Source of the DNA: Xenophilus azovorans DSM 13620
GTDB lineage: Bacteria; Pseudomonadota; Gammaproteobacteria; Burkholderiales; Burkholderiaceae_C
Direction: 5' to 3'
Assembly: GCF_000745855.1 (NCBI RefSeq)
Contig: NZ_JQKD01000004.1
Coordinates: 62,001-126,000, forward strand
DNA: 64,000 nucleotides
The first letter of the stretch is position 1; every line of letters begins with the position of its first letter. The notes beneath the pieces are model-generated. The model had not been told where the DNA came from. It did not search any database and saw nothing but the letters and a program-made list of their open reading frames with translations. Shown piece after piece: positions 4,176 through 62,424 of the stretch. Position numbers and translations under genes: made by a program.

Positions 4176-4189
4176 CTAACAAGCGTTAG
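4176..4189. promoter_or_regulatory. Palindromic operator CTAACAAGCGTTAG between tetR and acyl-CoA dehydrogenase
   Basis: Perfect 5-base arms (CTAAC/GTTAG) with a 4-base centre in the 81-base divergent region. Possible -10 elements flank it on both sides: TAAATT at 4195-4200 for the plus-strand operon and TACAGT (complement of 4166-4171) for tetR. A bound repressor would therefore block both promoters. The -35 regions are weak. The same motif recurs at 27435, 31547, 42172, 47951, 49068 and 60459. Autoregulation by the adjacent TetR protein is inferred. Confidence 0.75.
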
Positions 4190-4239
4190 GTCGATAAATT
4201 GTCGGCCGGCGCCTTTCTTCAGTCGCCCAAGTTGATGCC

Positions 4240-5376
4240 ATGCTGCAACGCCCGCTCTTCACCGCCGAGCACGACCTCTTCCGCGAGCAGGTCAGGCGCT
4301 TCTTCGACCGCGAGGTCACGCCCCACCACGCGCGCTGGGAGGCCGAGGGCATCGTGCCGCGAGCCGTCTGGCGCGCGGCCGGCGAGGCCGGGCTGCTCTG
4401 CCCTGCCATCCCCGAGGCCTATGGCGGCGGCGGCGGCAGCCGGCTGCACAGCGCGGTGCTGATCGAGGAGGTGGCCCGCGCCGGCGCCAGCGGCATCGGC
4501 TTCGGGCTGCACTCGGACATCGTCGCCCCTTACATCCTGGCCTACGGCAACGAGGAGCAGAAGCGGCGCTGGCTGCCGCCGATGGCGCGTGGCGAGGTCA
4601 TCGGCGCCATCGCGATGACCGAGCCCGGCGCCGGCAGCGACCTGCAGGCGGTGCACACCACCGCGCTGCGAGACGGCGATGACTACCTCGTCAACGGCCA
4701 GAAGACCTTCATCACCAACGGCCAGAACGCCGACCTCGTGATCGTGGTCGCCAAGACCGACCCGTCCGTCGGCGCCAAGGGCACCTCGCTGGTGCTGGTG
4801 GAGACCGACCGGGCCGGCTTCAAGCGCGGCCGCAACCTCGAGAAGATCGGCATGAAGGCGCAGGACACGTCGGAGCTGTTCTTCGACGGCGTGCGCGTGC
4901 CGGCCGCCAACATCCTCGGCGGCGAAGGCAAGGGCTTCGTCCTGCTGATGCAGGAGCTGGCCTGGGAGCGCATGCAGATCGCCATCGGCGCAGCCGCCGG
5001 CGCCGAGGCCGCGCTGCAGTGGACGCTGGACTACACCAAGGAGCGCAGGGCCTTCGGCCAGCGCATCATCGACTTCCAGCACAACCGTTTCCGCCTGGCC
5101 GAATGGAAGACGCAGGTGCAGGTGATGCGCGTCTTCGTCGATCGGCTGATGGACGAACTGCTGCACGGACAGCTCGACGCCGCGACCGCCGCCATGGCCA
5201 AGTACTGGACCACCGACCTGCACTGCCGGCTGCTCGACGACTGCCTGCAGATGTTCGGCGGCTTCGGCTACATGTGGGAGTACCCGATCGCGCGCGCCTA
5301 TGCCGACGCCCGCGTCTCCCGCATCTACGGCGGCACGAACGAGATCATGAAGGAGATCGTCGGCCGCACGCTGTGA
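4240..5376 (+). CDS. Acyl-CoA dehydrogenase
   Basis: FAD-dependent acyl-CoA dehydrogenase of 378 residues. The substrate/FAD loop [12 protein letters not shown] is at about 125-136, the likely catalytic glutamate E243 in LAWERMQ (isovaleryl/long-chain type position), and the C-terminal signature [11 protein letters not shown] has Gly where short- and medium-chain enzymes have the catalytic Glu. The overall form resembles LCAD/FadE-like enzymes. It is the first gene of the long plus-strand operon reaching about 23.6 kb and lies directly under the tetR-side operator. Thiolase and FadB-like genes follow, giving a complete beta-oxidation spiral. Confidence 0.93.
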
Positions 5377-5439
5377 CGCGCCGCGCGGCCGAAGCGCCGG
5401 TGGGCCGTCGTCCCACCCTCACCCCAACCCCATCAGCCC

Positions 5440-6648
5440 ATGACCGAAGCATTCATCTACGACGCCGTGCGCACCCCGCGCGGCAAGGGCCGCGCCTCCG
5501 GCGCGCTGCACGGCAGCACGCCGATCCACCTGGCCGTCACCGCGCTGCAGGCGCTGCGCGATCGCAACCGGCTCGACACCGCGCTGGTCGACGACGTGAT
5601 CCTCGGCTGTGTGGAGCCGGTCGGCGAACAGGGCGCCAACATCGCCCGCGTCGCGGCGCTGGTGGCCGGCTACGACGAGTCGGCGCCGGGGGTGCAGATC
5701 AACCGCTACTGCGCCTCGGGCCTGGAGGCCTGTAACATGGCCACGGCCAAGGTGATGTCGGGCCAGTCGCCGCTGGCCGTCGGCGGCGGCGTCGAGAGCA
5801 TGAGCCGCGTGCCCATGGGCACCGGCGGCGGCGCCTGGCCGGCCGACCCGGCGGTGGCGCTGCCCACCTACTTCGTGCCGCAGGGCATCTCCGCCGACCT
5901 GATCGCGTCGCTGTACGGGCATTCGCGCGCCGATGTCGACGCCTATGCGCTGGAAAGCCAGCGCCGCGCCGCCGCCGCGTGGGCCGAGGGCCGCTTCGCG
6001 CGCTCGATCGTCCCGGTGTGCGACGTCAACGGCCTGGTGGTGCTGGACCGCGACGAACACATGCGCCCCGAGACCACGATCGAATCGCTGGCCAAGCTCG
6101 AACCCTCGTTCAAGCTCCAGGGCGAGCGTGCCGGCTTCGACGCGGTGGCGCTGCAGCGCTACCCGCAGCTCGAACGCATCGAACACGTGCACCACGCCGG
6201 CAACTCCTCGGGCATCGTCGACGGCGCTGCCGCCGTGCTGATCGGCAACGCCGAGGTCGGCCAGCGGCTGGGCCTGGAGCCGCGCGCGCGCATCCGCTCG
6301 TTCGCCTCCGTCGGCAGCGAGCCGACCATCATGCTCACCGGCCCGTCGTTCTCGGCCGAGAAGGCGCTCAAGCTCGCCGGCATGTCCTGCTCCGACATCG
6401 ATCTGTTCGAGCTCAACGAGGCCTTCGCATCGGTGGTGCTGCGCTTCATGGAGGTGATGAACGTGCCGCACGCGCGCATGAACGTCAACGGCGGTGCCAT
6501 CGCGATGGGCCATCCGCTGGGTGCCACCGGGGCCATGATCCTCGGCACCCTGCTCGACGAGCTCGAGCGCCGCAACCTTGCCACCGGGCTGGCCACGCTG
6601 TGCGTGGGCGCCGGCATGGGCACCGCCACCATCATCGAGCGCGTCTGA
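5440..6648 (+). CDS. Acetyl-CoA acyltransferase (thiolase)
   Basis: Thiolytic cleavage of 3-oxoacyl-CoA to acetyl-CoA and a shortened acyl-CoA. It has 402 residues with all catalytic residues: nucleophile C91 in [11 protein letters not shown]358 in [11 protein letters not shown] and C388 in [10 protein letters not shown]. It starts at the ATG at 5440, 63 bases after the dehydrogenase. The next gene encodes the hydratase/hydroxyacyl-CoA dehydrogenase, so this is the FadA-like partner of a FadB-like protein. A biosynthetic acetoacetyl-CoA thiolase is less likely in this context. Confidence 0.95.
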
Positions 6649-6673
6649 ACCGCGCCGATCGGGAATCCTCACC

Positions 6674-8809
6674 ATGAGCATCGACTACCAAGCAGGCGCC
6701 GACGGCATCGCCACATTGACGTGGCAGATGAGCGATGCGCCGATGAACGTCCTCAACGCGGCCTCGATGGCCGCCTATGCGGCCGCGGTGCGGCGCGCCA
6801 TCGCCGATCCCGCCGTCAAGGGCGTGATCGTCACCTCGGCCAAGCCGGAGTTCATCGCCGGCGGCGACCTGAACATGCTGCTGGCCTTCAGCGACGCGCA
6901 GGCCATGACCCGCTTCACCGAAGAGCTGCACGCCCTGATGCGCGGCATCGAGAAGAGCGGCAAGCCCTTCGTCGCGGCGCTCAACGGCAGCGCGCTGGGC
7001 GGCGGCTACGAGGTGGCGCTGAGCTGCCACCGCCGCATCGCCGCCGACAACCCGAAGGCGCAGATCGGCCTGCCCGAGGTGGGCCTGGGCCTGCTGCCCG
7101 GCGGCGGCGGCACGCAGCGTCTGCCGCGGCTGATCGGCATCCGGCCCGCCCTGCCCTACCTGCTGGAAGGCAAGAAGGTCTCGCCGGCGCAGGCGTTGAA
7201 GGCCGGCATGGTGGACGAGGTCGTGCCGCCGGCCGAGCTGCTGGCGCGCGCACGCGCCTGGCTACTGGCGGCGAAGCCCGAGGACGCGGTGCAGCCCTGG
7301 GACCGCAAGGGATTCAAGCTTCCCGGCGGTCCGGTGCAAAGCCCCGCCGGATACGAGACCTTCACCGCCGGCAATGCGCTGCTGCGCGCCAGGACCTTCG
7401 GCAACTACCAGGCGCCCGAAGCGATCATGAGCTGCGTCTACAACGGCTGCCAGGTCGACATCGACACCGCCCTGAAGATCGAGGGGCGCGAGTTCGTCAA
7501 GCTCACCGTCGGCCCGGTGTCGAAGAACATGATCCGTACGCTGTTCTTCGGCATCGGCGAAGCCAACAAGCTCGCCGCCCGGCCCAAGGGCGTGCCGCCG
7601 GCCAGCTACCGCCGCGTCGGCATCCTCGGCGCCGGCATGATGGGTGCCGGCATCGCCTGCGCGGCGGCCGAGGCCGGGCTCGATGTGGTGCTGCTGGATA
7701 CCACGTCCGAGCTCGCGGCGCGCGGCAAGGCCTATGGCGAGGCGCGCTGGGCCAAGCAGGCCGAGCAGGGCCGCCTGAGCGCCGAGAAATGCGCCGCGCT
7801 GGCGGCCCGCATTTGCCCCACGGCCGACTTCGCGGCGCTGGACGGCTGCGACATCGTGGTCGAGGCCGTGTTCGAGGACCGCGCCCTGAAGGCCGACGTG
7901 ACCCGCAAGGCCGAGGCCCAGCTCGCGCCCGACGCCATCTTCGCCAGCAACACCTCGACGCTTCCCATCAGCGGCCTGGCGCAGGCCTCGGCGCGGCCGG
8001 CCAACTTCATCGGCCTGCACTTCTTCTCGCCGGCCGAGAAGATGCCGCTGGTCGAGGTCATCGTCGGCAAGGCGACGAGCGAATCCTGCCTGGCCCGCGC
8101 GCTCGACTTCGTGAAGGCGCTGCACAAGACGCCCATCGTCGTGAACGACAGCCGAGGCTTCTACACCAGCCGCGTGTTCTCCACCTATGTCGGCGAAGGC
8201 CTGACGCTGCTGGCCGAAGGCGTGGCGCCGGCCTTGATCGAGAACGCCGGCCGCATGGCCGGCATGCCGGTGGGGCCGCTGGCCCTGGCCGACGAGGTCT
8301 CACTCGAACTGATGGCCCGCATCCGCCGCCAGACCGCCGCCGACCTGGGCTCGGCCTACCAGCGCAGCGCCATCGACGAGGTCTGCGAGCGCATGGTCGA
8401 CAGCGCCCTCGGCCGCCTTGGCAAGAAGGCCGGCAAGGGCTTCTACGAGTATCCGCAGGGTGCCACCAAGCACCTGTGGTCCGGCCTGGCCGGCCTGTGG
8501 AAGCCGGCGTCGGTGCAGCCGGGCGTGGCCGAGGTCAAGCAGCGGCTGATGGCGATCCAGTCCATCGAAACCGTGCGCTGCCTCGAGGAAGCTGTGCTGC
8601 GAGCGCCGATCGACGCCGACGTCGGCGCCATCCTCGGCTGGGGTTTCCCGGCCTACCTTGGCGGCCCGATCGGACAGATCCACAGCCGCGGCGTTGCTGC
8701 CTTCGTGGCCGACTGCGACGAGTTGGCACGCCGCCACGGCCCGCGCTTCGAGCCGCCGAAGAGCCTGCGCGCGATGGCCGCCGAAGGCAAGACCTTCTTC
8801 GCGCGCTGA
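6674..8809 (+). CDS. FadB-like fusion: enoyl-CoA hydratase / 3-hydroxyacyl-CoA dehydrogenase
   Basis: Two-domain beta-oxidation enzyme of 711 residues. The N-terminal crotonase domain (about 1-190) has the oxyanion segment FIAGGDLNM and both catalytic glutamates, E113 in GGGYEVALSC and E135 in GLPEVGLGLLPGGGG. The C-terminal dehydrogenase (from about 310) has the NAD loop GAGMMGAGIA at 319-328 and the catalytic histidine H449 in IGLHFFSPAEKMPLVEV. Length and order match the alpha subunit of the fatty-acid oxidation complex. The ATG at 6674 is chosen because homology starts there (MSIDYQ). The thiolase gene ends 25 bases upstream; together they can form the trifunctional complex. Confidence 0.95.
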   Translation: MSIDYQAGADGIATLTWQMSDAPMNVLNAASMAAYAAAVRRAIADPAVKGVIVTSAKPEFIAGGDLNMLLAFSDAQAMTRFTEELHALMRGIEKSGKPFVAALNGSALGGGYEVALSCHRRIAADNPKAQIGLPEVGLGLLPGGGGTQRLPRLIGIRPALPYLLEGKKVSPAQALKAGMVDEVVPPAELLARARAWLLAAKPEDAVQPWDRKGFKLPGGPVQSPAGYETFTAGNALLRARTFGNYQAPEAIMSCVYNGCQVDIDTALKIEGREFVKLTVGPVSKNMIRTLFFGIGEANKLAARPKGVPPASYRRVGILGAGMMGAGIACAAAEAGLDVVLLDTTSELAARGKAYGEARWAKQAEQGRLSAEKCAALAARICPTADFAALDGCDIVVEAVFEDRALKADVTRKAEAQLAPDAIFASNTSTLPISGLAQASARPANFIGLHFFSPAEKMPLVEVIVGKATSESCLARALDFVKALHKTPIVVNDSRGFYTSRVFSTYVGEGLTLLAEGVAPALIENAGRMAGMPVGPLALADEVSLELMARIRRQTAADLGSAYQRSAIDEVCERMVDSALGRLGKKAGKGFYEYPQGATKHLWSGLAGLWKPASVQPGVAEVKQRLMAIQSIETVRCLEEAVLRAPIDADVGAILGWGFPAYLGGPIGQIHSRGVAAFVADCDELARRHGPRFEPPKSLRAMAAEGKTFFAR

Positions 8810-8864
8810 GGGCCCCATCCGCGCGCTGTCCGCCCAACGCCCTCTTCGAGAAAACCAAGACCGC

Positions 8865-10484
8865 ATGTCCACCATCGAGTCCGCCATCGACCGGCAGTCC
8901 GAAGCCTTCCAGGCACAGCGCCAGCAGATGCTGGCCTTGATCGACAACTTCCGCGACCTGGAAGGTCGCGTGCGCGACACCTCCAACGCGATGGAGTCGC
9001 GCTTTCGCGAGCGCCGGCAACTGCTGCCGCGCGAACGCGTGTCGCTGCTGCTGGACCGCGGCTCGCCGTGGCTGGAGCTGTCCACGCTGGCCGGCCTGCG
9101 CCTGCACGACGACGACGGCGAGAAGAACGTGCTCGGCGGGGCGCTGATCACCGGCATCGGCATCGTCTCGGGCATCCGCTGCATGGTCATCGCCTCCGAC
9201 AGCGCCATCAAGGGCGGCACCATCACGCCGATGGGCATGCGCAAGAGCCTGCGCGCCGAGGCCATCGCGCTGGAGAACCGCCTGCCGGTGGTGCGGCTGG
9301 TCGAATCGGGAGGCGCCAATCTGATGCACGTGGGCGAGGTGTTCATCGAAGGCGGCCGCGGCTTCGCCAACCAGGCGCGGCTGTCGGCCGCCGGCATTCC
9401 GCAGGTCACCGTGATGCACGGCCACTCCACTGCCGGCGGCGCGTATCTGCCGGGCATGTCCGACTACGTGATCATGGTGCGCGGCCGCGCCAAGGCCTTC
9501 CTGGCCGGCCCACCGCTGCTGAAGGCGGCCACGGGCGAGATTGCCGGTGACGAGGAACTGGGCGGCGCCGAGATGCACACCCGGGTCTCCGGCGTGGCCG
9601 AGTACCTGGCCGAGGACGATGCCGACGGCATCCGCATCGCGCGCGACGTGCTCGCGCGCATGCCGTGGAACGACAAGCCCGGCCAGGGCACCGGGCGCGG
9701 CTGGAAGCCGCCGCGCTACGCCGCCGAGGAGATTGCCGGCCTGGTGCCGCCGGATTACCGCCAGCCCTACGACGTGCGCGAGTTGCTCGCGCGCCTGATC
9801 GATGATTCGGACTTCCTCGACTTCAAGCCCGAGTTCGGCGCCGCCACCGTGTGCGGACACGGCGCCATCGAGGGCCAGCCCTGCGGCTTCATCGGCAACA
9901 ACGGCCCGATCGACCCGCAGGGCGCGAACAAGGCCACGCAGTTCATGCAGCTGTGCGAGCAGTCCGGCACGCCGCTGATCTACCTGCAGAACACCACCGG
10001 TTTCATGGTCGGCAAGGAGGTCGAGCAGGTCGGCATGATCAAGCACGGCGCGAAGATGATCCAGGCCGTCACCAACTGCAAGGTGCCGCGCATCACGCTG
10101 ATGATCGGCGCCTCCTTTGGTGCCGGCAACTACGGCATGTGCGGGCGCGCCTACGACCCGCAGTTCGTCTTCGCGTGGCCCAACGCGCGCGTGGCGGTGA
10201 TGGGCGGCGAGCAGGCGGCGATGGTGATGCGCATCGTCACCGAGGAGAAGATGGCGCGCGCCGGCAAGGCGCCGCCCGAGGACCTGCTCGAGGGCATGCG
10301 CTCCGAGATCCTGAAGCGCTTCGACATGGAGTCGCACTCGCTGTTCGCCACCGCGCGGCTGTGGGACGACGGCATCATCGACCCGCGCGACACGCGCGCC
10401 GTGCTGTCGCTGGCGCTGGCCGCGTGCCGCGAGGGCCGTGCCCGCAGCGTGCGGCCCAACAGCTTCGGCGTGGCGCGGATGTGA
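8865..10484 (+). CDS. Acyl-CoA carboxylase, carboxyltransferase (beta) subunit
   Basis: Carboxyltransferase half of a biotin-dependent acyl-CoA carboxylase, 539 residues. Both crotonase-fold halves are present, with HGHSTAGGAYLPGMSDY near 185 and KAFLAGPPLLKAATGEI near 212, a stretch typical of 3-methylcrotonyl-CoA and geranyl-CoA carboxylases rather than propionyl-CoA carboxylase. The biotin-carboxylase subunit follows after 11 bases. The enzyme would carboxylate the gamma carbon of a 3-methyl-branched enoyl-CoA so that beta-oxidation can continue. Presence of an AtuA-family gene downstream keeps an isoprenoid substrate open, but leucine catabolism is equally possible from sequence alone. 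Confidence 0.92.
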   Translation: MSTIESAIDRQSEAFQAQRQQMLALIDNFRDLEGRVRDTSNAMESRFRERRQLLPRERVSLLLDRGSPWLELSTLAGLRLHDDDGEKNVLGGALITGIGIVSGIRCMVIASDSAIKGGTITPMGMRKSLRAEAIALENRLPVVRLVESGGANLMHVGEVFIEGGRGFANQARLSAAGIPQVTVMHGHSTAGGAYLPGMSDYVIMVRGRAKAFLAGPPLLKAATGEIAGDEELGGAEMHTRVSGVAEYLAEDDADGIRIARDVLARMPWNDKPGQGTGRGWKPPRYAAEEIAGLVPPDYRQPYDVRELLARLIDDSDFLDFKPEFGAATVCGHGAIEGQPCGFIGNNGPIDPQGANKATQFMQLCEQSGTPLIYLQNTTGFMVGKEVEQVGMIKHGAKMIQAVTNCKVPRITLMIGASFGAGNYGMCGRAYDPQFVFAWPNARVAVMGGEQAAMVMRIVTEEKMARAGKAPPEDLLEGMRSEILKRFDMESHSLFATARLWDDGIIDPRDTRAVLSLALAACREGRARSVRPNSFGVARM

Positions 10485-10495
10485 GGGCGACGGAA

Positions 10496-12466
10496 ATGCG
10501 AACCTCCTTCCACAAGATCCTCATCGCCAACCGCGGCGAGATCGCCTGCCGCGTCATGCGCACCGCCCGCGCGCAGGGTTACCGCACGGTGGCGGTGTAC
10601 AGCGAGGCCGATGCCGGCGCGCTGCACGTTCAGCAGGCCGACGAGGCGCTGTGCATCGGCCCGGCGCCGGTGCGCGAGAGCTACCTCAGCATCGACGTCG
10701 TGCTGCGCGCCGCGGCCGCCAGCGGTGCCGACGCCATCCATCCCGGCTACGGCTTCCTGTCCGAAAACGCCGAGTTCGCGCGCGCCGTGCAGGCTGCCGG
10801 CCTGGTGTTCATCGGCCCCGATCCGCACTCGATCGAACAGATGGGCAACAAGGCCGCCGCCAAGCGGCTGATGCTCGCCGCCGGTGTGCCCTGCGTGCCG
10901 GGCTACCAGGGCAGCGATCAGTCCGACGCCAACCTGCTGCGCCAGGCGCGCGAGATCGGCGCGCCGATCATGGTGAAGGCGGCGGCCGGCGGCGGCGGCC
11001 GCGGCATGCGGCTGGTGCACGACCTGGCCGACCTGCCCGATGCGCTGGCACGCGCCCGCTCGGAGGCCGCGAACGCTTTCGGCTCTGACGAACTGATTCT
11101 GGAGCGCGCGGTGATCGAGCCGCGCCACGTCGAGGTGCAGGTCTTCGGCGACCGCCACGGCCACGTCATCCACCTCGGCGAGCGCGACTGCTCCGTGCAG
11201 CGGCGCCACCAGAAGGTGTTCGAGGAAGCGCCCTCACCGGCCGTCGATGCCGCGCTGCGCGAACGCATGGGCGCGGCGGCCGTCACCGCGGCGCGCGCAG
11301 TGGACTACGTCGGCGCCGGCACGGTGGAGTTCCTGCTCGACCGCGACGGCAACTTCTACTTCCTGGAGATGAACACGCGGCTGCAGGTCGAGCACCCGGT
11401 GACGGAATGCATCACCGGGCTCGACCTCGTGGCCTGGCAGCTCGCCGTGGCGCGCGGCGAGGCGCTGCCGCTGACGCAGGACGAGGTTCACCTCACCGGC
11501 CACGCCATCGAAGTGCGCCTGTATGCCGAAGACCCGGCCAGCGACTTCCTGCCGCAAAGCGGCGAGGTGGCGCTGTGGCAGCCGCCTGCGGGCAGCGGCG
11601 TGCGCGTCGACCACGGCCTGGCGCAGGGGCAGGCGGTCAGCCCCTTCTACGACCCGATGGTCGCCAAGATCATCGCCCACGGCGCCACGCGCGATGAAGC
11701 GCGGCGGCGCCTGGTCGGAGCGCTGGGCAACACCTGCGTGCTGGGCCTGCCCACCAACCTGCGCTTCCTCGCGGACGCGGCGGCGCACCCCGAGTTCGTG
11801 GCCGGCCAGGCGACCACCGCCTTCATCGGCAGGAACTTTCCCCCGGAGCGGCTGCGCGCAGCCGAGGCGAATTCGCGGGCGCTGGCGGTCGCCGCCGCCC
11901 TGTGGTTCGACGCCAGCGCGTACCGAGGCGCGCAGTTCGGCTTCCGCTCCAACGGGCCGGCGCGCTGGCCACTGGTGCTGGGCGCGGACGGGGACCGTGT
12001 CAACGCCCACGTCACCGTGCTCGGTGCCGGGCGGTTCCGCGTCGAGTGCCCCGCGGGTGCCGCACACGACATCGCCCTTCTCGGGCGCGACGCTGCCCAC
12101 CATCGGCTGGCCATCGACGGGCTGCACACGCAGGCCACGGCGGTGTTCGCCGGCGGCCGCCTGCATCTGGCGCTGGACGGCCAGACACGCAGTTTCGATG
12201 ACCTCACCTACGCTCCGCCCCAGCGCGACGACGCCGCCGGCGAATCGAGCGTGCTGGCACCGATGAACGGCCGCCTGCTCGCCGTGTTGGTGTCGGCGGG
12301 CGACAGGGTGGTGAAGGGCCAGCGCGTCGCGGTCCTCGAGGCCATGAAGATGGAACACCAACTGCTGGCGCGTCGCGACGGCGTCGTCGAGCGTGTCGGT
12401 GCCGCGGTGGGCGAACAGCTGGCCACGCGCGCGCTGGTCGTGAAGCTGATCGAGGAAGCCGCTTGA
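10496..12466 (+). CDS. Acyl-CoA carboxylase, biotin carboxylase/BCCP (alpha) subunit
   Basis: ATP-dependent biotin carboxylase fused to the biotin carrier domain, 656 residues, as in methylcrotonyl- and geranyl-CoA carboxylase alpha chains. It begins HKILIANRGEIACRV, has ATP-grasp glycine loop KAAAGGGGRGM near 162 and the catalytic stretch EMNTRLQVEHPVTE near 290. The biotin site EAMKMEH sits near the C-terminus with K618 as the biotinylated lysine. The start is the ATG at 10496, which fits homologous N-termini. It is partnered with the beta subunit immediately upstream. Confidence 0.94.
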   Translation: MRTSFHKILIANRGEIACRVMRTARAQGYRTVAVYSEADAGALHVQQADEALCIGPAPVRESYLSIDVVLRAAAASGADAIHPGYGFLSENAEFARAVQAAGLVFIGPDPHSIEQMGNKAAAKRLMLAAGVPCVPGYQGSDQSDANLLRQAREIGAPIMVKAAAGGGGRGMRLVHDLADLPDALARARSEAANAFGSDELILERAVIEPRHVEVQVFGDRHGHVIHLGERDCSVQRRHQKVFEEAPSPAVDAALRERMGAAAVTAARAVDYVGAGTVEFLLDRDGNFYFLEMNTRLQVEHPVTECITGLDLVAWQLAVARGEALPLTQDEVHLTGHAIEVRLYAEDPASDFLPQSGEVALWQPPAGSGVRVDHGLAQGQAVSPFYDPMVAKIIAHGATRDEARRRLVGALGNTCVLGLPTNLRFLADAAAHPEFVAGQATTAFIGRNFPPERLRAAEANSRALAVAAALWFDASAYRGAQFGFRSNGPARWPLVLGADGDRVNAHVTVLGAGRFRVECPAGAAHDIALLGRDAAHHRLAIDGLHTQATAVFAGGRLHLALDGQTRSFDDLTYAPPQRDDAAGESSVLAPMNGRLLAVLVSAGDRVVKGQRVAVLEAMKMEHQLLARRDGVVERVGAAVGEQLATRALVVKLIEEAA

Positions 12467-12503: not shown

Positions 12504-13652
12504 ATGAGCCGATCCAGCCCCTTCTACACCGCCGAGCACGAGGCCTTCCGGGCCGCCGTGCGGCGTTTCGTCGCGCGCGAAATCACGCCGAACGTCGAGA
12601 CCTGGGAGAACCAGGCGAGCTTCCCGCGCGAGCTGTACCGACAGGCCGCCGAACTCGGGCTGCTGGGCCTGGGCTTTCCCGAGGCGTACGGCGGCAACGA
12701 TGGCGACCTTTTCATGACCATCATCGCCGCCCAGGAGCTCGCACGCTGCGGCGGCGGCGGTGTGCTGGCCAGCCTGCTGTCGCACACCATCGGCTGCCCG
12801 CCGATCGTCAACGCCGGCAGCGAGGCGCTCAAACGCAAGGTGCTGCCACCGGTGATGCGGGGCGAGAAGATCAGCGCGCTGGGCATCACCGAGCCCTCGG
12901 GCGGCTCCGACGTCGCCAACCTGAAGACCACCGCCCGGCGCGACGGCGACCACTACGTCGTCAACGGTTCCAAGACCTTCATCACCTCGGGCATCCGCGC
13001 CGACTTCTACACCGTGGCCGTGCGCACCGGCGGCCAGGGTCCGGCCGGCGTGTCGCTGCTGCTCATCGAGAAGGGCATGCCGGGCTTCACTCAGACGCCG
13101 CTGTCCAAGATGGGCTGGCTGTGCTCGGACACCGCCACGCTGCACTTCGACAACGTGCGCGTGCCGGTGGACAACCTCGTGGGCACCGAGAACCAGGGTT
13201 TCAAGGCCATCATGCAGAACTTCAACCGCGAGCGCATCTTCCTGGCTGCGGGTGCGAACGGCTTCGCGCAGGTGTGCCTGGACGAAGCGCTGGCCTGGGC
13301 GAAGCAGCGCGAGATGTTCGGCGGCAAGCTGATCGACCAGCAGGTCACGCGCCACAAGCTGGCCGACATGGCGATGCGCATCGAAGCCACGCAGGCCATG
13401 CTCGAGACGCTGGCCTGGCGCGTCGAGCACGGCGACGCGCCGGTGGGCGAGATCTGCCTGCTGAAGAACCAGGCCACGCAGACCATGGCCTTCTGCGCCA
13501 ACGAGGCGGTGCAGATGCACGGCGGCGCGGGCTTCATCCGCGGCGTGACGGTGGAGCGCATTTACCGCGAGGTGAAGGTCAACGCCATCGGCGGTGGGGC
13601 CGAGGAGGTGATGCGCGACCTGGCGGCGCGGCAGCTGGGGTTCCACGCATGA
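12504..13652 (+). CDS. Acyl-CoA dehydrogenase
   Basis: FAD acyl-CoA dehydrogenase of 382 residues. It carries GITEPSGGSDVANLKT at about 127-142, the likely base E243 in NRERIFLAAG, and the conserved FAD-adenine motif QMHGGAGFIRG near 342. The C-terminal signature reads NAIGGGAEEVMRD, with Gly in the MCAD-Glu position, as in isovaleryl-like enzymes. An ATG at 12504 is preferred over a TTG 18 bases earlier. Its stop overlaps the start of a second, degenerate dehydrogenase gene (ATGA), so the two may form a heteromer. Confidence 0.92.
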   Translation: MSRSSPFYTAEHEAFRAAVRRFVAREITPNVETWENQASFPRELYRQAAELGLLGLGFPEAYGGNDGDLFMTIIAAQELARCGGGGVLASLLSHTIGCPPIVNAGSEALKRKVLPPVMRGEKISALGITEPSGGSDVANLKTTARRDGDHYVVNGSKTFITSGIRADFYTVAVRTGGQGPAGVSLLLIEKGMPGFTQTPLSKMGWLCSDTATLHFDNVRVPVDNLVGTENQGFKAIMQNFNRERIFLAAGANGFAQVCLDEALAWAKQREMFGGKLIDQQVTRHKLADMAMRIEATQAMLETLAWRVEHGDAPVGEICLLKNQATQTMAFCANEAVQMHGGAGFIRGVTVERIYREVKVNAIGGGAEEVMRDLAARQLGFHA

Positions 13653-14839
13653 AGACCTCGCCAGCTGCCGAGCTCCCGCCGGCCGAGGGCCTGGTGCGGG
13701 CGCTGCGCCAGGCGTTGCGTGGTGCGCCCGCGGTGGCGCGCGAAGCCGGCTTTCCGCGCACCTGGTGGCGCCACCTGGGTGAGCAGGGCCTGCTGGGCCT
13801 GTCGTTCGATCTCGACGGGCGCGGCCCACGTGCCGACTGGCCCACCATCGCCCGGCTTGCCGGCGGCATGGCGCGCGAGACCGGCAGCCTCGGCCTCACG
13901 CTCGGCTGGATGCTCAACGAGATGCTGGGGCGCTGCGTCATCGGCGGCGCGGGGATCGAATCGGAACGGGTGCGCGCACTGCTGCGGCGCATGGCCGCCG
14001 GCCAGGCCATCGTGGGCCTGGCCGTCTCCGAGCCCGACGCCGGCGCGCACCCGAAACGCCTGCGCTGCAGCGCCCGCCGAGAACAGGACGCGCAGGGCGA
14101 GCGCTGGCTGCTCGACGGCAGCAAGTCGCACGTCAGCAATGGCCCGGCGGCCGATGTCTTCGTGGTGCTGGCGGTCACGGCGGATGACGGCCTGCGCAAG
14201 GCCTTCGACGCCTTCTTGGTCGAAGCCGGCACGCCGGGCCTTGCGCTTCAGCCTTCGGCTGGCGCCGGCTCTGGCCCGATCAGCGCACCCGCTGCCGCGG
14301 TGCTGGCGCCCTTGCAGCACGCCGGCCTGCAATTCGAAGCCTGCGCCGTGCCCGCCGGCTCCCGGCTCGGCCCGGGTGGCACCGCCTTCGACCGCATCGC
14401 CAGGCCCGTGCGCGTGGTCGAGGACGCGCTGCTCACGAGCGCGGTGGTCGGCGCGATGCGCGCCGAGCTTGACGCACTGGCGCGCTGGTTGCGCCCGACC
14501 CAGCCCGCGCCGGCACTGCTGCGCCGGCTGGGCGCGTTGCGGCTCGAGCTCGATGCCCTGCAGGCGGTGGCCGACCAGGCGGCCCGCCGCCTCGAAGCCG
14601 AAGGCCCGGGCACAGGCCTGGCGCAGTTCAACGCCGGCAGCCGGCGCCTGCTGGAACGCTGGCAGGCCGAGTTCGAATCTCTCGCCGCAACGCTCGACGA
14701 TCTGGGCGACGCCATCGCGTCTCTGAGCCGCGACATCCGTTGCGTGCTGGGCATCGCCCGCAGCGTCGGCGAGACGCGCCAGCTCGAAGCCGGCCAACGC
14801 ATGCTGCTCACAGAGGAGTCCGATGAAGTCCCTGCATGA
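13649..14839 (+). CDS. Divergent acyl-CoA dehydrogenase-like protein
   Basis: A 396-residue protein with the N-terminal helical domain of acyl-CoA dehydrogenases (HLGEQGLLGLSFDLDG near 35) and a middle segment VGLAVSEPDAGAHPKRLR near 122 followed by GSKSHVSNGPAADVFVV, recognisable as the family's beta domain. The C-terminal domain is poorly conserved: I find no ER-type glutamate in helix G, no HGG.G FAD-adenine motif and no Y-x-G-T signature. It is probably non-catalytic alone. The 4-base ATGA overlap with the intact dehydrogenase upstream suggests a regulatory or structural second subunit. Its 3' end overlaps the MoxR gene by 17 bases. Confidence 0.75.
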   Translation: MKTSPAAELPPAEGLVRALRQALRGAPAVAREAGFPRTWWRHLGEQGLLGLSFDLDGRGPRADWPTIARLAGGMARETGSLGLTLGWMLNEMLGRCVIGGAGIESERVRALLRRMAAGQAIVGLAVSEPDAGAHPKRLRCSARREQDAQGERWLLDGSKSHVSNGPAADVFVVLAVTADDGLRKAFDAFLVEAGTPGLALQPSAGAGSGPISAPAAAVLAPLQHAGLQFEACAVPAGSRLGPGGTAFDRIARPVRVVEDALLTSAVVGAMRAELDALARWLRPTQPAPALLRRLGALRLELDALQAVADQAARRLEAEGPGTGLAQFNAGSRRLLERWQAEFESLAATLDDLGDAIASLSRDIRCVLGIARSVGETRQLEAGQRMLLTEESDEVPA

Positions 14840-17181: not shown

Positions 17182-17194
17182 AGGCCGTTGAGTC

Positions 17195-18844: not shown

Positions 18845-18878
18845 CGTCCAAGTCACTCTCTGCAACAGGAACCCGACC

Positions 18879-19370: not shown

Positions 19371-19419
19371 AACGGCTGCGCACGCCCTCCAACAACCGCT
19401 CGCGAAAGGACCTATCGGC

Positions 19420-21201: not shown

Positions 21202-21239
21202 CCCCACCCGCCCTGCCCCGAAACCCCAAGGAGTGATCC

Positions 21240-26213: not shown

Positions 26214-26229
26214 GGCAGGTGGTCCGATG

Positions 26230-27448: not shown

Positions 27449-27458
27449 GTTGAAGTGT

Positions 27459-42171: not shown

Positions 42172-42185
42172 CTAACAACCGTTTG
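42172..42185. promoter_or_regulatory. Operator-like palindrome CTAACAACCGTTTG
   Basis: Fits CNAAC-N4-GTTNG; with flanking bases CCTAAC/GTTTGG, five of six arm pairs match. It lies in the 122-base divergent region between the crotonase (minus) and MmgE/PrpD (plus), immediately before a clear -10 (TATACT at 42188-42193), and so within the promoter spacer. A related half-site pair (CAAAC...GTTAC) lies just upstream at about 42156-42171. Confidence 0.7.
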
Positions 42186-47950: not shown

Positions 47951-47964
47951 CTAACAGCCGTTAG
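47951..47964. promoter_or_regulatory. Palindromic operator CTAACAGCCGTTAG
   Basis: Perfect CTAAC/GTTAG arms in the 165-base divergent region between the monooxygenase (minus) and the Bug receptor (plus). A possible -10 for the monooxygenase is TAGAAT (complement of 47938-47943), 7 bases from the palindrome. The remainder of the gap to 48058 has a good ribosome site (CCAGGAGCGG) but no other clear element. Confidence 0.72.
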
Positions 47965-49067: not shown

Positions 49068-49081
49068 CTACCAAGCGTTTG
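49068..49081. promoter_or_regulatory. Operator-like palindrome CTACCAAGCGTTTG
   Basis: Fits the window pattern with one change (CTACC for CTAAC); an overlapping reading, ACCAA-GCGT-TTGGT, is also a perfect inverted repeat. It precedes the -10 at 49087 by 5 bases, the same spacing as at the tetR-side operator (4176 to 4195). It lies in the 116-base gap before badH. Confidence 0.6.
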
Positions 49082-55090: not shown

Positions 55091-56127
55091 TGCGCAGCGG
55101 CAACTTCAAGGAAGACTACCGCCAGTTGCTGGCGCTGACCGACTCGGTGCCGGTGATCGTCTGGTCACTGGTGCTGGTGGCGGCGATCGCGCTCGCGCCG
55201 CTGCTCATCGGCAAGTACTTCGTCTCGCTGCTGCTGCTGCTGATGGTCACGGCCGTCGGCGTGCTGGGACTGAACATCCTCACCGGCACCACCGGCCTCA
55301 TCTCGCTGGGCCACGCCGGCTTCCTGGCGGTGGGCGCGTATGCGGCCGGCATCGTGGCCGGACGCTACGGCTGGCCGATGCCCGCGGCGCTGCTGGCCGG
55401 TGGTGCCGCTGCCGCGGCCGCCGGCCTGGTGGTGGGCGTGCCCTCGCTGCGTCTGAAGGGCCTGTACCTCGCGATCACGACGATGGCCTTCGCGGTGATC
55501 ATCAACCACCTCATCCTCAACGGTGGCGAGTTGACCGGCGGCTCCGAGGGCTTGAAGGTGCCGCAGCCGGCGTTGCTCGGCCAGCCACTCGCGGCCGAAG
55601 GCGGCTACTACTACGTGGTGCTGGCGGTGTTGCTGCTGGCAGTGTTCGCCACGCTGAACCTGCAGCGCAGCCGCGTCGGCAGGGCGCTGATGGCGATCCG
55701 CGAGCACGACATCGCCGCGCGCGCGATGGGGGTGAACCTGGTGCGCTGGCGCCTGCTCGCCTTCACCGTGAGCGCCTTCTACACCGGCGTGGCCGGTGCG
55801 CTGCTGGCCTTCTACACCCGCTACCTCAACGTCGACAGCTTCAGCCTGCTGGTGTCGATCGAGGCGCTGTCGATGCTGATCGTCGGCGGCCTGGGCACGG
55901 TGTCGGGCGCGCTGCTGGGCGCGGTTTTCATCTTCGTGCTCAACGAGGGCCTGGGCCTGCTGTTCAGCGCGCTCGGCTCGGGCGCGCTGTCCACGGCCGC
56001 CTTCGAGATCAAGGGCATCGTCTATGGCCTGGCCATCGTGCTCTTCCTGCGCTTCGAGCCCGACGGCCTGGTCGGCCGCTGGCGCGACCTCAAGCACTAC
56101 TGGACGCACTGGCCGTTCCGCTACTGA
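55090..56127 (+). CDS. livM: Branched-chain-type ABC transporter permease (LivM)
   Basis: A 345-residue second permease with about ten hydrophobic segments. LNILTGTTGLISLGHAGFLA is near 61 and GLGTVSGALLGAVF near 268, both standard in LivM. A charged N-terminal tail of about 20 residues precedes the first helix. The start overlaps livH (TGATG); the receptor gene follows after 52 bases. Confidence 0.94.
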   Translation: MRSGNFKEDYRQLLALTDSVPVIVWSLVLVAAIALAPLLIGKYFVSLLLLLMVTAVGVLGLNILTGTTGLISLGHAGFLAVGAYAAGIVAGRYGWPMPAALLAGGAAAAAAGLVVGVPSLRLKGLYLAITTMAFAVIINHLILNGGELTGGSEGLKVPQPALLGQPLAAEGGYYYVVLAVLLLAVFATLNLQRSRVGRALMAIREHDIAARAMGVNLVRWRLLAFTVSAFYTGVAGALLAFYTRYLNVDSFSLLVSIEALSMLIVGGLGTVSGALLGAVFIFVLNEGLGLLFSALGSGALSTAAFEIKGIVYGLAIVLFLRFEPDGLVGRWRDLKHYWTHWPFRY

Positions 56128-56179
56128 TATCCCCACCGGCCGGGGCCCGCAGCCCCGCTCACCACGAGAGGAGTCCGAC

Positions 56180-57382
56180 ATGAGCACGATCGTTCTTCGC
56201 AGCCTGCGCCCCCTGTGGGCAGCCGCGCTGCTCGCATTCGCCGGCGCCGCGCAGGCCGCGGACCCCGGCGTCTTCGACGACCGCCTCGTCATCGGTGGCG
56301 TACTGCCGCAGACGGGCCCGCCCAGCCTCATCGGCAAGGCCGGCGTGATCGCGCTGCGCGTGTGGGAGAAGGACGTCAACGCGCGTGGCGGCATCCACGG
56401 CCGCAAGATCGACCTGCGCGTGGAGGAAGACGGCTACGTGCCGCAGCGCTCGGTGCAGGCGATCAAGAAGCTCGTCGACGTCGACAAGGTCTTCGCCGTC
56501 ATCGGCACCTCGGGCTCCTCGCACTTGATGGCGATGATGCCCACGATCGAGGAGAACCAGCTCCCGGCAATCAATTTCGCCGCCGTCGCCGGCACGCACT
56601 TCAACCCGCCGCGCAAGACGGTCTTCAACATCGGTGCCACCTACTGCCAGGAAGTCACTGGCGTGATGAAGCATCTGATCGCCACGCGCAAGCTGCAGAA
56701 GGCCAAGTTCGCGCTGATCTACCAGGACGACGACTTCGGCGCCGATGTCAAGTGCGGCTACGACGCGGCGCTCAAGTCCGCCGGCCTGAGCAGCACGATC
56801 GACGTGCCGTACAAGCGGGCGCAGAAGGACTTCTCGGCCGAGGTGCTGGCAGTGCAGAAGTCAGGCGCCACTTTCGTGCTCGTGGGCGGCATCATCAGTG
56901 AGACCGCCACCATGCTCAAGGAGATCCAGAAGAACGGCATGGACGTCATCCGCCTGGCGGCGCACCCCTCGCACCTGGGCGCGGTGCTGCAACTGGCCGG
57001 CAGCGCCGCCGAGGGCCTGCTGGTGGCCGACTACGTGCCGCCGATCACCGACACCGAGACGCAGGGCATCGGCCGCCTGAACGCGCTGGCCTACAAGTAC
57101 CTCACCGCCGACGACGTGAAGGCGATGAACCGCTACTCGCTCACCGGCTACGTGGCTGCGATGCTGCTGGAGTCGGCCCTGCAGGCCTGCGGCCGCAACC
57201 TGACACGCGCCTGCCTGGTGCAGAAGCTCGAGCAGACCAAGAACTTCGCCAGCGACGGCATCATGGCCCCGCTGACCTTCGGCCCCAACATCCGCCAGAG
57301 CGGCACGCGACCGATCCTGCTGAAAGCCAACGTCGCCAACGGCAAGTTCGAGCGCGCTTCGGACTGGTTGTCGGACAAGTAG
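56180..57382 (+). CDS. Periplasmic substrate-binding protein of the Liv-type transporter (first copy)
   Basis: A 400-residue type I periplasmic binding protein. The signal peptide MSTIVLRSLRPLWAAALLAF ends near AAQAA (residue 27). Motifs: RLVIGGVLPQTGPPSLIGKA near 36, NARGGIHGRKIDLRVEEDGY near 67 and LIYQDDDFGADVKCGYDAAL near 176. Cys pairs near 156 and 189 and at the C-terminus may form disulfides. The ATG follows a GAGAGGAG site. It is a close paralogue of the next gene; both probably feed LivHM-FG. Confidence 0.92.
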   Translation: MSTIVLRSLRPLWAAALLAFAGAAQAADPGVFDDRLVIGGVLPQTGPPSLIGKAGVIALRVWEKDVNARGGIHGRKIDLRVEEDGYVPQRSVQAIKKLVDVDKVFAVIGTSGSSHLMAMMPTIEENQLPAINFAAVAGTHFNPPRKTVFNIGATYCQEVTGVMKHLIATRKLQKAKFALIYQDDDFGADVKCGYDAALKSAGLSSTIDVPYKRAQKDFSAEVLAVQKSGATFVLVGGIISETATMLKEIQKNGMDVIRLAAHPSHLGAVLQLAGSAAEGLLVADYVPPITDTETQGIGRLNALAYKYLTADDVKAMNRYSLTGYVAAMLLESALQACGRNLTRACLVQKLEQTKNFASDGIMAPLTFGPNIRQSGTRPILLKANVANGKFERASDWLSDK

Positions 57383-59647: not shown

Positions 59648-60331
59648 TCAAGGCGCCACCTCGAAGCCCGCAAAGTGCGCAAACTCTTCCGGCTTGGCGC
59701 GCTCGGTGATGAAGGCGTTCTCGGGCGCTGCCAAGTCCTCGTGGCCGAGCGCGATGCCGCACGCCAGGATCTCGTGCTCCGACAGCGGCAGCTGCTCGCG
59801 CACGATCTTGTGGAACCAGGCAAACGCCGCCTGCGCGCAGGTATGCAGGCCCTGGGCCCGGGCCGCGACCATGATGTTCTGGATGAACATGCCCAGGTCC
59901 ATGAAGCTGCCGGTGTTCAGGCGCCGGTCGAGCGTGACGAGCAGGCCCACCGGGGCGTCGAAGAAGACGTAGTTGCGCAGCATCTGCCGTTCGCGCGCGG
60001 CGGCGTCGTCGCGCGCAATGCCCAGCGTGGCGTACAGGCCGAAGCCGCAGCGCCGGCGCCGATCGAGGTAAGGCTCGACCCACTGCGTCGGGTAGTAGGC
60101 GTACTCGGGCTGATGCCGGTCGGCGTCGGTGGTGGCGGCCTGCACGATGGCGTCGCACAGGCGTTGCCGCGGTTCACCGGCAACGGCATAGACGCGCCAG
60201 GGCTGGACGTTGTTGCCGCTCGGCGCATGCGCCGAGACCTGCAGGATATGGTGCACCGTCGACGCGGGCACCGGCGTGGGCAGGAAACGCCGCACGGACT
60301 TGCGGCTGCGGATGGCATCGTCGACGTGCAT
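59648..60331 (-). CDS. Nitroreductase family flavoprotein
   Basis: A 227-residue FMN protein. IRSRKSVRRFLPTPVP near 7 and SGNNVQPWRVYAV near 38 are the FMN-binding motifs, and AQGLHTCAQAAFAWF near 161 is also typical. An ATG at 60329-60331 is chosen; a longer frame upstream has no homology. Nitroreductase-fold proteins here could reduce quinones or enones, or act as an oxidase/desaturase; the true substrate is unknown. It is divergent from the ligase at 60448. Confidence 0.88.
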   Translation of the reverse strand: MHVDDAIRSRKSVRRFLPTPVPASTVHHILQVSAHAPSGNNVQPWRVYAVAGEPRQRLCDAIVQAATTDADRHQPEYAYYPTQWVEPYLDRRRRCGFGLYATLGIARDDAAARERQMLRNYVFFDAPVGLLVTLDRRLNTGSFMDLGMFIQNIMVAARAQGLHTCAQAAFAWFHKIVREQLPLSEHEILACGIALGHEDLAAPENAFITERAKPEEFAHFAGFEVAP

Positions 60332-60447
60332 CGGGGGTTCCTCGTAGCGACCTTGGGCACCGGTTCGGCAGCAGGCATCCGTCGTGCCGCGGCGGCCGTC
60401 GCCGCGCGCGCTGGACGTCGGATGCGCCATGCGCTAATCTCGCGCCA

Positions 60448-62424
60448 ATGGATTCTACCAAACGACCGTTCGATTGGCTGCCCTCGGCGGCCACCATCGC
60501 CGGGTCCAACCTGACGGCCTTCATCCGCCACACGGGCCAGGGCGACCTGCCCAGCCTGCAGCGCCGCGCCGACGCCGACCCGGCCTGGCTGATGGAGCAG
60601 GTGTTCGGGTTCTGCGACTTCCGCTTCTACAAGCCCTGCGAGCGCATGCTCGACACCTCGCGCGGCATCGAGTGGGCGCGCTGGTGCGTCGGCGGCACGA
60701 CCAACATCGTGCTCAACTGCATCGACCGCCACCGCGGCACGCCCGCCTGGGACCGCACCTTCATCACCTGGGAGGGTGAGGACCCCAAGGCCCCGAACGC
60801 GCGTCGCGAACTCAGCTACCGCGAGTTCGACGCCGAGCTCTGCCGGCTGGCCGGCGCGCTCGAGGCGCTGGGCGTGCAGCGCGGCGACCGCGTGGGCTTG
60901 TACATGCCCAACCTGCCCGAGACCTTCATCGCCTTCTTCGCGGTGCTGAAGATCGGCGCCGTCATCATGCCGCTGTTCTCGGGCTTCGGGCCGCAGCCGC
61001 TGGTGGCGCGCCTGAACGACGGCGAGGCCAAGGTCGTGCTCACGGTCGACGGCACTTGGCGCCGCGGCAGCCCCGGCGCGATGAAGTCGGTGCTCGACGA
61101 GGCCTTGGCGTCGACGCCCAGCGTCGAACACGTGCTGGTGCTGCGCCACCTGGGCGATGCCTTGCCCTGCCCGATGACCGCCGGGCGCGACCTCGACTGG
61201 GCCACGGCCGTGGCCGGGCAGGCGGCCGAGCGGCAGACGGCCGAGATGGCCGCCGACGACGCCGCAGTGTTGCTCTACACCTCGGGCACCACCGGCAAGC
61301 CCAAGGGTTGCGTCTGGACGCACGTGGGCTTCCTCGGCTCGATGGTCACGCGCGACATGCACATCTGCGGTGACTTCCGCGCGGATGACCGCTTCTTCTT
61401 CATGAGCGACATGGGCTGGATGGTGGGCGCGATGTGCGCCTGCATCCCCAGCTACTTCGGCGGCAGCCTGCTGGTGGCTGAGGGCACGCCCGACTACCCC
61501 GACACCGGCCGCTTCTGGCGACTGCTGCAGGACCACCGGGTCACCTACCTCGGCGTGGCGCCCACGCTGATCCGTGGACTGATGCGCCACGGCGACCAGG
61601 ACGTCGAGCGCTACGACCTCTCGGCGCTGCGCATCACCGTCTCCGGCGGCGAGGCCTGGACCGAATCGCCTTGGCGCTGGTTCTTCGAGCATGTGTGCAA
61701 GAAGAAACTGCCGTTCCTGAACATCGTCGGCGGCACCGAGGTCGGCGGCTGCAACTTCACCGGCACCGTGCACCACCCGTTGCGCCCGGGCTCCTTCGGC
61801 ATGGGCGGCCTGGGCGTGGGCGTTGACATCGTCGACGAAGCCGGCCAGCCCGTAGGCCCTGGCCAGGTGGGCGAACTGGTGCTGCGCAACCCCAACATCG
61901 GCTTCACCAAGAGCCTGTGGCGCGACGACGAGCGCTATCTCGACAGCTACTGGCGCACCATCCCCGGCCTGTGGGTGCACGGCGACTTCGCGATGCGCGA
62001 CGAGGACGGCCTCGTCTACATCCTCGGCCGCAGCGACGACACCATCAAGGTCTCTGGCAAGCGCACCGGCCCTTCCGAGATCGAAACGCTGCTCACCGGC
62101 ACGGGCAAGGTGTCGGAAGCGGCGGTGATCGGCGTGCCCGATGAGGTCAAGGGCTCGGCCATCGTCTGCGTGTGCGTGCCGATGCCCGGTGTGGCGGCCG
62201 ACGGCACGCTCGAGCAGGAGTTGGCGGCAGCCGTGGTCAAGGGCATGGGCAACTCGTACCGCCCGCGCCAGGTGCTGCTGGTGAGCGACTTGCCCAAGAC
62301 GCGCAACATGAAGATCATGCGGCGCGTGGTGCGCGCGGTATACCGCGGCGACAACCCGGGGGATCTGTCCTCGCTGGTCAACCCGGAGGCCGTGGCGGAT
62401 CTGCGGGCGAGGCTGTCGGCTTGA
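60448..62424 (+). CDS. AMP-forming acyl-CoA synthetase (acetyl/acetoacetyl-CoA synthetase-like)
   Basis: A 658-residue ANL ligase of the acetyl/acetoacetyl-CoA synthetase branch. P-loop LLYTSGTTGKPKGCVWTH is near 272, NIVGGTEVGG near 426, WVHGDFAMRDEDGLVYILGR near 509, DDTIKVSGKRTGPSE near 529, and the A10 element LPKTRNMKIMRR has its catalytic Lys. This type often activates small or branched carboxylic acids. The palindrome at 60459-60472 lies inside codons 4-9, and TAATCT at 60434-60439 would give an almost leaderless message. The upstream 116 bases show no other clear element. Confidence 0.92.
   Translation: MDSTKRPFDWLPSAATIAGSNLTAFIRHTGQGDLPSLQRRADADPAWLMEQVFGFCDFRFYKPCERMLDTSRGIEWARWCVGGTTNIVLNCIDRHRGTPAWDRTFITWEGEDPKAPNARRELSYREFDAELCRLAGALEALGVQRGDRVGLYMPNLPETFIAFFAVLKIGAVIMPLFSGFGPQPLVARLNDGEAKVVLTVDGTWRRGSPGAMKSVLDEALASTPSVEHVLVLRHLGDALPCPMTAGRDLDWATAVAGQAAERQTAEMAADDAAVLLYTSGTTGKPKGCVWTHVGFLGSMVTRDMHICGDFRADDRFFFMSDMGWMVGAMCACIPSYFGGSLLVAEGTPDYPDTGRFWRLLQDHRVTYLGVAPTLIRGLMRHGDQDVERYDLSALRITVSGGEAWTESPWRWFFEHVCKKKLPFLNIVGGTEVGGCNFTGTVHHPLRPGSFGMGGLGVGVDIVDEAGQPVGPGQVGELVLRNPNIGFTKSLWRDDERYLDSYWRTIPGLWVHGDFAMRDEDGLVYILGRSDDTIKVSGKRTGPSEIETLLTGTGKVSEAAVIGVPDEVKGSAIVCVCVPMPGVAADGTLEQELAAAVVKGMGNSYRPRQVLLVSDLPKTRNMKIMRRVVRAVYRGDNPGDLSSLVNPEAVADLRARLSA
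60459..60472. promoter_or_regulatory. Operator-like palindrome CAAACGACCGTTCG inside ligase start
   Basis: Matches CNAAC-N4-GTTNG but lies within the first ten codons of the ligase. If the TAATCT at 60434 is the -10, the site is just downstream of the transcription start, a position where a repressor can still block. A chance coding match cannot be excluded. Confidence 0.4.

Follow-up and report, generated by a model that had tools for sequence, protein, structure and literature searches.

A repeated TetR-type palindrome and its probable regulator in a recently exchanged acyl-CoA catabolic island of Xenophilus azovorans

The stretch of DNA analysed here (the window) is 64,000 nucleotides of the genome of Xenophilus azovorans DSM 13620 (6.5 Mb in 132 contigs, GC 0.70) and corresponds to positions 62001-126000 of contig NZ_JQKD01000004.1 (C3; 308,020 bases, fetched whole). 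Near its left end, a gene for a TetR-family regulator (3487-4158, minus strand, probable ATG at 4158) faces an acyl-CoA dehydrogenase gene (4240-5376, plus strand), and the palindrome CTAACAAGCGTTAG (4176-4189) lies between the two, 17 bases from the TetR start codon. Palindromes of the same form recur through the window and well beyond it. On the evidence set out below, we consider it likely that the pattern CDAAC-RNNY-GTTHG is the operator of this TetR protein, which would repress a recently exchanged acyl-CoA catabolic island of about 190 kb. Genes were called with our own codon-usage scripts in place of a standard gene finder, and a second codon-model caller was used to re-check site placement. 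Coordinates are those of the window unless prefixed by C3.

An exact search with CNAACNNNNGTTNG found seven places in the window against 0.35 expected, a count reached by none of 100 shuffled sequences. In addition to the 4176 site, these are CAAACAAATGTTAG (27435-27448), between a thiolase-like gene and a short-chain dehydrogenase/reductase (SDR) gene; CGAACATTCGTTAG (31547-31560), between a transglutaminase-like gene and an old yellow enzyme (OYE)-type oxidoreductase; CTAACAACCGTTTG (42172-42185), between an enoyl-CoA hydratase and MmgE/PrpD; CTAACAGCCGTTAG (47951-47964), between a flavin monooxygenase (FMO)-like gene and a TctC receptor; CAAACGACCGTTCG (60459-60472), covering the opening codons of an acyl-CoA-synthetase-like gene by our gene calls; and a match at 41090, inside a called gene and with a spacer lacking the R..Y feature described below. 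A sequence-only reading of this DNA had listed seven sites fitting CNAAC-N4-GTTNG; six of them are exact, the 41090 match was absent from that list, and the seventh, CTACCAAGCGTTTG (49068-49081, before an SDR gene at 49147-49941), carries one mismatch. When one mismatch was allowed, 27 matches were found against 12.4 expected and one of 100 shuffles reached 27, so that a one-mismatch site alone is unconvincing; this criterion, with counts near chance, was dropped. The weak 49068 site (score 13.6) was retained because the sites of the orthologous gene score 14.3, 19.7, and 21.1 in three genomes. The earlier statement that every divergent gene pair has a site holds for the six such pairs of the window, by our gene calls. 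When two mismatches are allowed, every one of the seven window sites has a -10-like hexamer at a distance of 1-7 bases, a figure that carries no chance control. At the 4176 site, TACACT or TATACT, 7 bases before the palindrome, is visibly conserved in four genomes.

Across C3, exact sites number 19, of which the first caller places 14 in intergenic DNA, one over a gene end (C3:209343), and four in coding sequence. In all 15 non-coding sites, the four-base spacer starts with a purine (position 1) and ends with a pyrimidine (position 4), and position 2 of the site is never C; these features are additions to the earlier definition. Among the four coding sites, the refined pattern CDAAC-RNNY-GTTHG fits only the one at window 60459 (C3:122459), 11 bases into its gene as called. 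Most C3 sites have a CTAAC or CGAAC arm. Genome-wide, CNAAC-N4-GTTNG as written occurs at 61 places against 26 for a reversed control and is therefore only partly specific. The refined form has 21 genome sites (reversed control, 9), with 16 on C3 and 15 of those inside 186 kb (C3:66,176-252,145); the binomial P for this clustering is about 3e-19, an optimistic value since the same sites were used for refinement. The five refined sites off C3, together with an intergenic one at C3:1673 that is outside the island and probably there by chance, are all of the CGAAC..GTTCG form. All 12 CTAAC-arm places in the genome lie on C3 between 66 and 242 kb, in single-arm searches that were made only after the C3 sites had been inspected. 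As the sequence-only reading would have it, the sites avoid coding DNA: with the second caller, all 18 island sites tested lie outside coding sequence, and off C3 four of the five refined sites lie inside it. The proposal of one regulon spanning the window stands as to the shared operator and the single regulon, but the extent was drawn too narrowly, as sites reach from C3:66176 to C3:252132. Chance or base composition might in principle account for the palindromes, and the one-mismatch counts (27 against 12.4) and the reversed control (26 against 61 genome-wide) lean that way; with the exact count unmatched in 100 shuffles, the clustering, the intergenic placement, and the conservation described below, this account is scarcely credible.

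Conservation was examined in ten genomes, reached via TetR homologues and scanned for sites; the position weight matrix employed was built from 14 C3 sites, so that scores on C3 itself are not independent. Clustered sites recur in three of the ten, namely two metagenome-assembled genomes (MAGs), Burkholderiaceae TGS_PRO28 and Rubrivivax ACE_PRO12, and Schlegelella koreensis. Reciprocal best hits with C3 number 159, 60, and 156, respectively (151, 53, and 153 of them at least 60% identical), and gene order is largely kept over the C3 genes numbered g38-g198, with only g38-g95 present in ACE_PRO12 and g46-g48 missing from TGS_PRO28. Where a C3 promoter has a site, the orthologous promoter tends to have one too, and conversely. 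Promoter pairs with a site in both, in C3 only, in the orthologue only, or in neither number 19/4/5/60 for TGS_PRO28 (p 3e-11), 7/2/3/23 for ACE_PRO12 (p 5e-4), and 24/1/2/62 for S. koreensis (p 2e-18); a site between divergent genes counts for both genes, making these p values optimistic. For the window, an orthologous site is present in all three genomes at 4176 (before the orthologous TetR gene), 27435, 31547, and 60459, and in two of three at 42172. Sites scoring above 12 fall outside called genes in 28 of 29 cases in TGS_PRO28, 12 of 13 in ACE_PRO12, and 17 of 21 in the three S. koreensis stretches, some of them overlapping one another. Over 37 site pairs, identity is 98% at arm positions, 71% at spacer and variable positions, and 40% in the flanks; score guided the choice of orthologous sites, which makes the value for the arms partly circular and leaves that for the flanks unaffected. 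In Extensimonas, where counterparts of the island genes are dispersed through the genome, nine of 13 sites adjoin such homologues (60% identity or more) and four do not; in Hydrogenophaga, all three fetched places (of six) do.

The TetR gene at 3487-4158 is, as had been stated, the only one in the window; the genome has 36 TetR_N matches, and a second site-bearing TetR gene lies about 148 kb away on C3. The window protein belongs to the TetR family by its matches to TetR_N (60.6 bits, cut-off 24) and TetR_C_24 (57.7 bits, cut-off 26.4). Its AlphaFold model is all-helical (mean confidence score, pLDDT, 87.5), and an identical protein is encoded by Comamonadaceae bacterium ALPHA2B. Homologues were compared at 110 loci, i.e. 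80 of 98 relatives from a species-genome collection and 30 from a family-genome search; the rows include near-copies (L107 with the window, L063 with L135), and filtering of the homologue scan by the peptides SGSLFYHF and LV[AM][VI]MEEG biases the sample toward that helix. A group at 57-100% identity comprises 36 rows, 34 of them with a promoter (L065 and L119 meet a contig end). All 34 have C[TA]AAC-GCTT-GTTAG upstream, beginning 34-54 bases before the codon aligned to query residue 1, against 0.03 expected in shuffled promoters, and in a maximum-likelihood tree (L065 excluded as too short) the rows with this AAC operator form one clade with support 100/100. The refined AAC form was found near the start in none of the 74 rows outside the clade; 31 of these instead carry the AtuR-type form CNAGC-N4-GCTNG, one end base being allowed to vary (shuffled promoters gave a mean of 1.3 and at most 4), and 43 have neither form in 300 bases. 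Together with the conservation in orthologous promoters, the operator in 34 of 34 clade promoters and the support of the clade agree with the earlier proposal that the window TetR is most likely the cognate regulator. The conserved site 17 bases from the ATG supports autoregulation of this gene. The 43 rows lacking both forms are mostly from Neisseriales, where TetR homologues 45-50% identical to the window protein mostly lack both kinds of site over the 300 bases and are perhaps not autoregulated.

The two operator forms are accompanied by differences in the protein. Residue 40 is Thr in 28 and Lys in six of the 34 AAC rows, whereas each of the 31 AGC rows has Gln, Arg, or His there; the Lys carriers are the window, ALPHA2B, two Schlegelella copies, and two groundwater MAGs. 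Residues 12 and 13 likewise differ, and residue 40 is emphasised for its place, directly preceding helix 41-46 of the AlphaFold model, which we take, from general knowledge of TetR proteins, to be the recognition helix. The operator apparently changed by one base per half-site, together with residue 40 beside this helix. Among the closest known systems is that of AtuR (RdmA), the TetR repressor of acyclic terpene utilisation in Pseudomonas. As in that system, the TetR gene here sits beside AtuA and a geranyl-CoA-carboxylase-like subunit on the facing strand, and the 13-mer published for the AtuR operator, AGCAAGCGCTTGG (PMC9973270, citing Foerster-Fromme and Jendrossek 2010), matches the AAC-AAGC-GTT core of the window in its AGC form. 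The same 13-mer occurs exactly upstream of TetR homologues at two loci (L076 and L084). Unlike AtuR, the window clade has AAC/GTT arms (AAC-GCTT-GTT) rather than AGC/GCT, the facing gene is an acyl-CoA dehydrogenase, and about 18 sites are spread over a mobile island in place of one cluster; the two regulators are set apart here by operator and gene context.

Several observations weigh against this assignment. Binding of the window TetR to the operator is predicted from sequence; the 34 clade rows include near-copies; the 47951 site is kept in only one of the three genomes; and only 118 of 176 island genes lie in site-led runs (same strand, gaps of at most 200 bases, site score above 13), the corresponding figure for the window being 52 of 56. 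To these must be added the second TetR gene (C3:213808-214431, i.e. L026:13808-14428), whose product is 36% identical to the window TetR and likewise has Lys 40. An operator lies 82 bp upstream of it in C3, a site adjoins it in all four island copies, and its neighbour in the tree, L082, outside the AAC clade, has CTAACCTGCGTTAG upstream, a CTAAC-N4-GTTAG palindrome whose spacer breaks the R..Y rule. It could be, then, that the two paralogues share or compete for the operator and respond to different acyl-CoAs, giving a two-sensor regulon. We think this unlikely: the 14-mer is absent upstream of all seven orthologues of the second TetR outside islands (11 loci compared), and ACE_PRO12 keeps its island sites with only 33% and 37% matches to the protein. 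Sites at the four island copies, none at the seven others, and the sites of ACE_PRO12 in a genome lacking a close orthologue lead us to assign the operator to the window TetR and to regard the second TetR as a target of it, possibly also a sharer; as sole regulator, the second TetR is disfavoured by the seven orthologues. A CTAACTAAC-like stretch stands near the start codon of several Comamonadaceae orthologues of the second TetR, and GTTAGTTAG at the island copies, which is perhaps its own site. On contig C40 of S. koreensis there is a gene whose product shows 100% identity to the second TetR.

A different possibility is that the regulator is FadP and that the island extends the known regulon of this beta-proteobacterial fatty-acid repressor. 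For Ralstonia, Burkholderia, and Comamonadaceae, FadP, a TetR protein, is the predicted regulator of fatty-acid degradation (PMC5343134 and PMC12543098). Host group and target-gene class are alike for FadP (or LiuQ) and the window. At 30 of the 34 clade loci, the gene opposite TetR codes for an acyl-CoA dehydrogenase resembling the one at 4240, and thiolase and FadB-like genes mostly come next; it is site-led genes of these three kinds that face the window TetR; Extensimonas and Hydrogenophaga, moreover, carry a dispersed version of the regulon. The likeness to FadP is one of description, and the window regulon, unlike that of FadP or LiuQ, is packed in one island. A family search of 150 genomes at E 1e-30 returned 34 matches: the window's own, two at 58% and 60% (the latter partial), and 31 at only 35-44% identity. 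Of the 27 lower matches fetched, 23 have an AGC-type site (13 of these loci with a carboxylase beta subunit nearby and three others with an acyl-CoA dehydrogenase) and four have none. We regard the FadP reading as possible but doubtful. When the search was made instead with the 4240-5376 acyl-CoA dehydrogenase (49 of 100 genomes matched), a TetR gene was found beside it at only two of 30 loci, the window's own and L319.

PsrA and KstR were also considered. The arm-spacer-arm layout is similar to the PsrA consensus C/GAAAC-N2-4-GTTTG/C (PMC13104628), which overlaps some sites, e.g. CAAACACTCGTTTG at C3:180147, and this resemblance had been remarked on from the sequence alone. As an identity it fails: the PsrA model NF053516, named for the Vibrio type, gives 35.2 bits against a cut-off of 300, and CTAAC or CGAAC arms predominate among the sites, which makes a PsrA orthologue bound to PsrA boxes highly improbable, and PsrA membership was rejected. 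Membership of KstR was also rejected (NF033703, 24 bits, cut-off 280).

KstR and KstR2 offer a parallel of another kind, in that one TetR operator is repeated through the large mycobacterial cholesterol catabolic cluster. KstR2 is a structural neighbour of the window TetR but matches it only at E 3e-12 by sequence. Among the structural matches listed, which also include PfmR and FadR, the highest template-modelling (TM) score by target (0.90) belongs to AibR, a TetR protein solved with isovaleryl-CoA; AibR is 27-28% identical and ranks by E-value below a Pseudomonas TetR protein (4mxm/4mo7), the nearest solved relative at 40-42% identity. Searches of titles and abstract openings found no description of the island or the operator.

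The island itself appears to have moved recently. S. koreensis C40 carries it in inverted orientation as four colinear blocks (5.5, 89.9, 39.9, and 42.9 kb; DNA identity to C3 96.4-98.0%) and has 18 sites that score above 15. The shared DNA amounts to about 178 kb at 96-98%, as compared with 85-89% in the rpoB region of the same two genomes, and recent horizontal transfer between genera is well supported by this contrast. The only same-genus genome in the samples (93.5% at rpoB) has no TetR match at E 1e-30 and four refined sites. Between the blocks, a patch with the electron transfer flavoprotein (ETF) genes and most of the TetR region (C3:63797-65505, window 1797-3505) is only 81% identical to C40 against about 97-98% in its flanks and looks like a local replacement around the regulator. 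To the left of the island, C3 encodes conjugation proteins (a TrwB-type coupling protein, VirB4-like, CagX, TrbI, and a secretion ATPase) as well as ParB, KfrA, ArdC, and an integrase at 55165-56382 of the contig, making conjugation the likely route. The region with these conjugation, partition, anti-restriction, and integrase genes (C3:1-58000) is of lower GC. The island apparently exists in S. koreensis in two versions, one on C40 and the other on C6+C8+C9, with two copies of each TetR gene. No known plasmid with the island was found in PLSDB: a search with window 4000-28000 returned 110 records, none covering 80% and the best 11% of the query, AtuA returned 144 records (25 at 60-80% identity, 119 below 60%), and TetR returned 101, all below 60%.

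Gene content was examined by a family scan of 40 of the approximately 55 window genes. On the TetR strand (minus, 534-3490) lie an acyl-CoA dehydrogenase (534-1694), ETF alpha (1797-2738), and ETF beta (2741-3490). The facing plus-strand run (4240-12466) begins with the acyl-CoA dehydrogenase, a thiolase, and a FadB-like gene, followed by a geranyl-CoA-carboxylase-like beta subunit (8865-10484) and a biotin carboxylase (10496-12466), and its remainder (12504-22436, plus) encodes acyl-CoA dehydrogenases, an AAA ATPase and VWA/CoxE-like pair, a thioesterase, and AtuA (19420-21201). The 27435 operator is flanked by a ChsH2-type OB protein and the thiolase-like protein on the minus strand and the SDR on the plus strand (25812-28280). 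The OYE-type oxidoreductase and three acyl-CoA-dehydrogenase-type genes (31587-37246, plus) lie behind the 31547 operator, and MmgE/PrpD, an acyl-CoA dehydrogenase, and an MFS transporter (42240-45984, plus) behind that at 42172. At the 60459 operator is an AMP-binding acyl-CoA-synthetase-like protein (60448-62424, plus), whose homologues in Extensimonas and Hydrogenophaga also have a site.

Island families comprise acyl-CoA dehydrogenases, ETF, thiolases, FadB-like proteins, carboxylase, AtuA, the ChsH2-type protein, MmgE/PrpD, CoA ligases, and TctC, and further ETF-quinone oxidoreductase (ETF-QO), HpcH, another carboxyltransferase, a CoA-transferase, and parts of a 2-oxoacid dehydrogenase. 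The best match of the 8865-10484 subunit is the geranyl-CoA carboxylase beta chain 5ikl, at 742 bits (next match, 545). Two further carboxylase beta subunits match AccD1- and methylcrotonyl-CoA-carboxylase (MCC)-type chains best, and a member of the 3-hydroxy-3-methylglutaryl-CoA (HMG-CoA)-lyase subfamily passes its cut-off. In NCBIfam, no family was found for AtuA and no equivalog above cut-off for the two carboxylase subunits tested. From AtuA, the geranyl-CoA-carboxylase-like beta subunit, and the HMG-CoA-lyase subfamily member, catabolism of branched or acyclic-terpenoid-type acyl-CoAs is moderately likely. The steroid half of the steroid/alicyclic-type regulon suggested earlier is unsupported (KstR at 24 bits against 280, KstR2 only a remote relative); the substrate may still be alicyclic.

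Taken together, a dimer of this TetR would most likely occupy about 18 sites in promoter or start regions of the island, one of them in the promoter of its own gene, and would block transcription there until released by the binding of an acyl-CoA intermediate, probably a branched one. Repression is suggested by the behaviour of the TetR family and by sites near -10-like and start regions, and an acyl-CoA ligand by structural neighbours such as AibR with isovaleryl-CoA. The island encodes its own transporters, CoA ligases, acyl-CoA dehydrogenases, and carboxylases as well as ETF and ETF-quinone oxidoreductase. The regulon would work by analogy with those of AtuR, KstR, or FadP type, with an operator differing from that of AtuR. 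More tentatively, and at somewhat short of an even chance, we propose that a self-regulated regulon (one TetR, about 18 operators, about 150 largely colinear genes, and an ETF/ETF-QO chain) travels between genera as a unit of about 190 kb, probably by conjugation, and that its operator arose from an AtuR-type one through the exchange of one base in each half-site, linked to a change at residue 40 (Q/R/H to T/K), which would insulate the regulon from host regulators of AtuR/LiuQ type.

The analysis names a likely regulator, with about 18 promoter sites, for a large island of catabolic genes in Burkholderiales. Here a transcription factor would have stayed with its operators and more than 100 target genes through horizontal transfer, in a regulon that is seen both clustered (the window genome, Schlegelella, and two MAGs) and dispersed (Extensimonas and Hydrogenophaga), and the switch of its operator is testable via one residue or one base per half-site.

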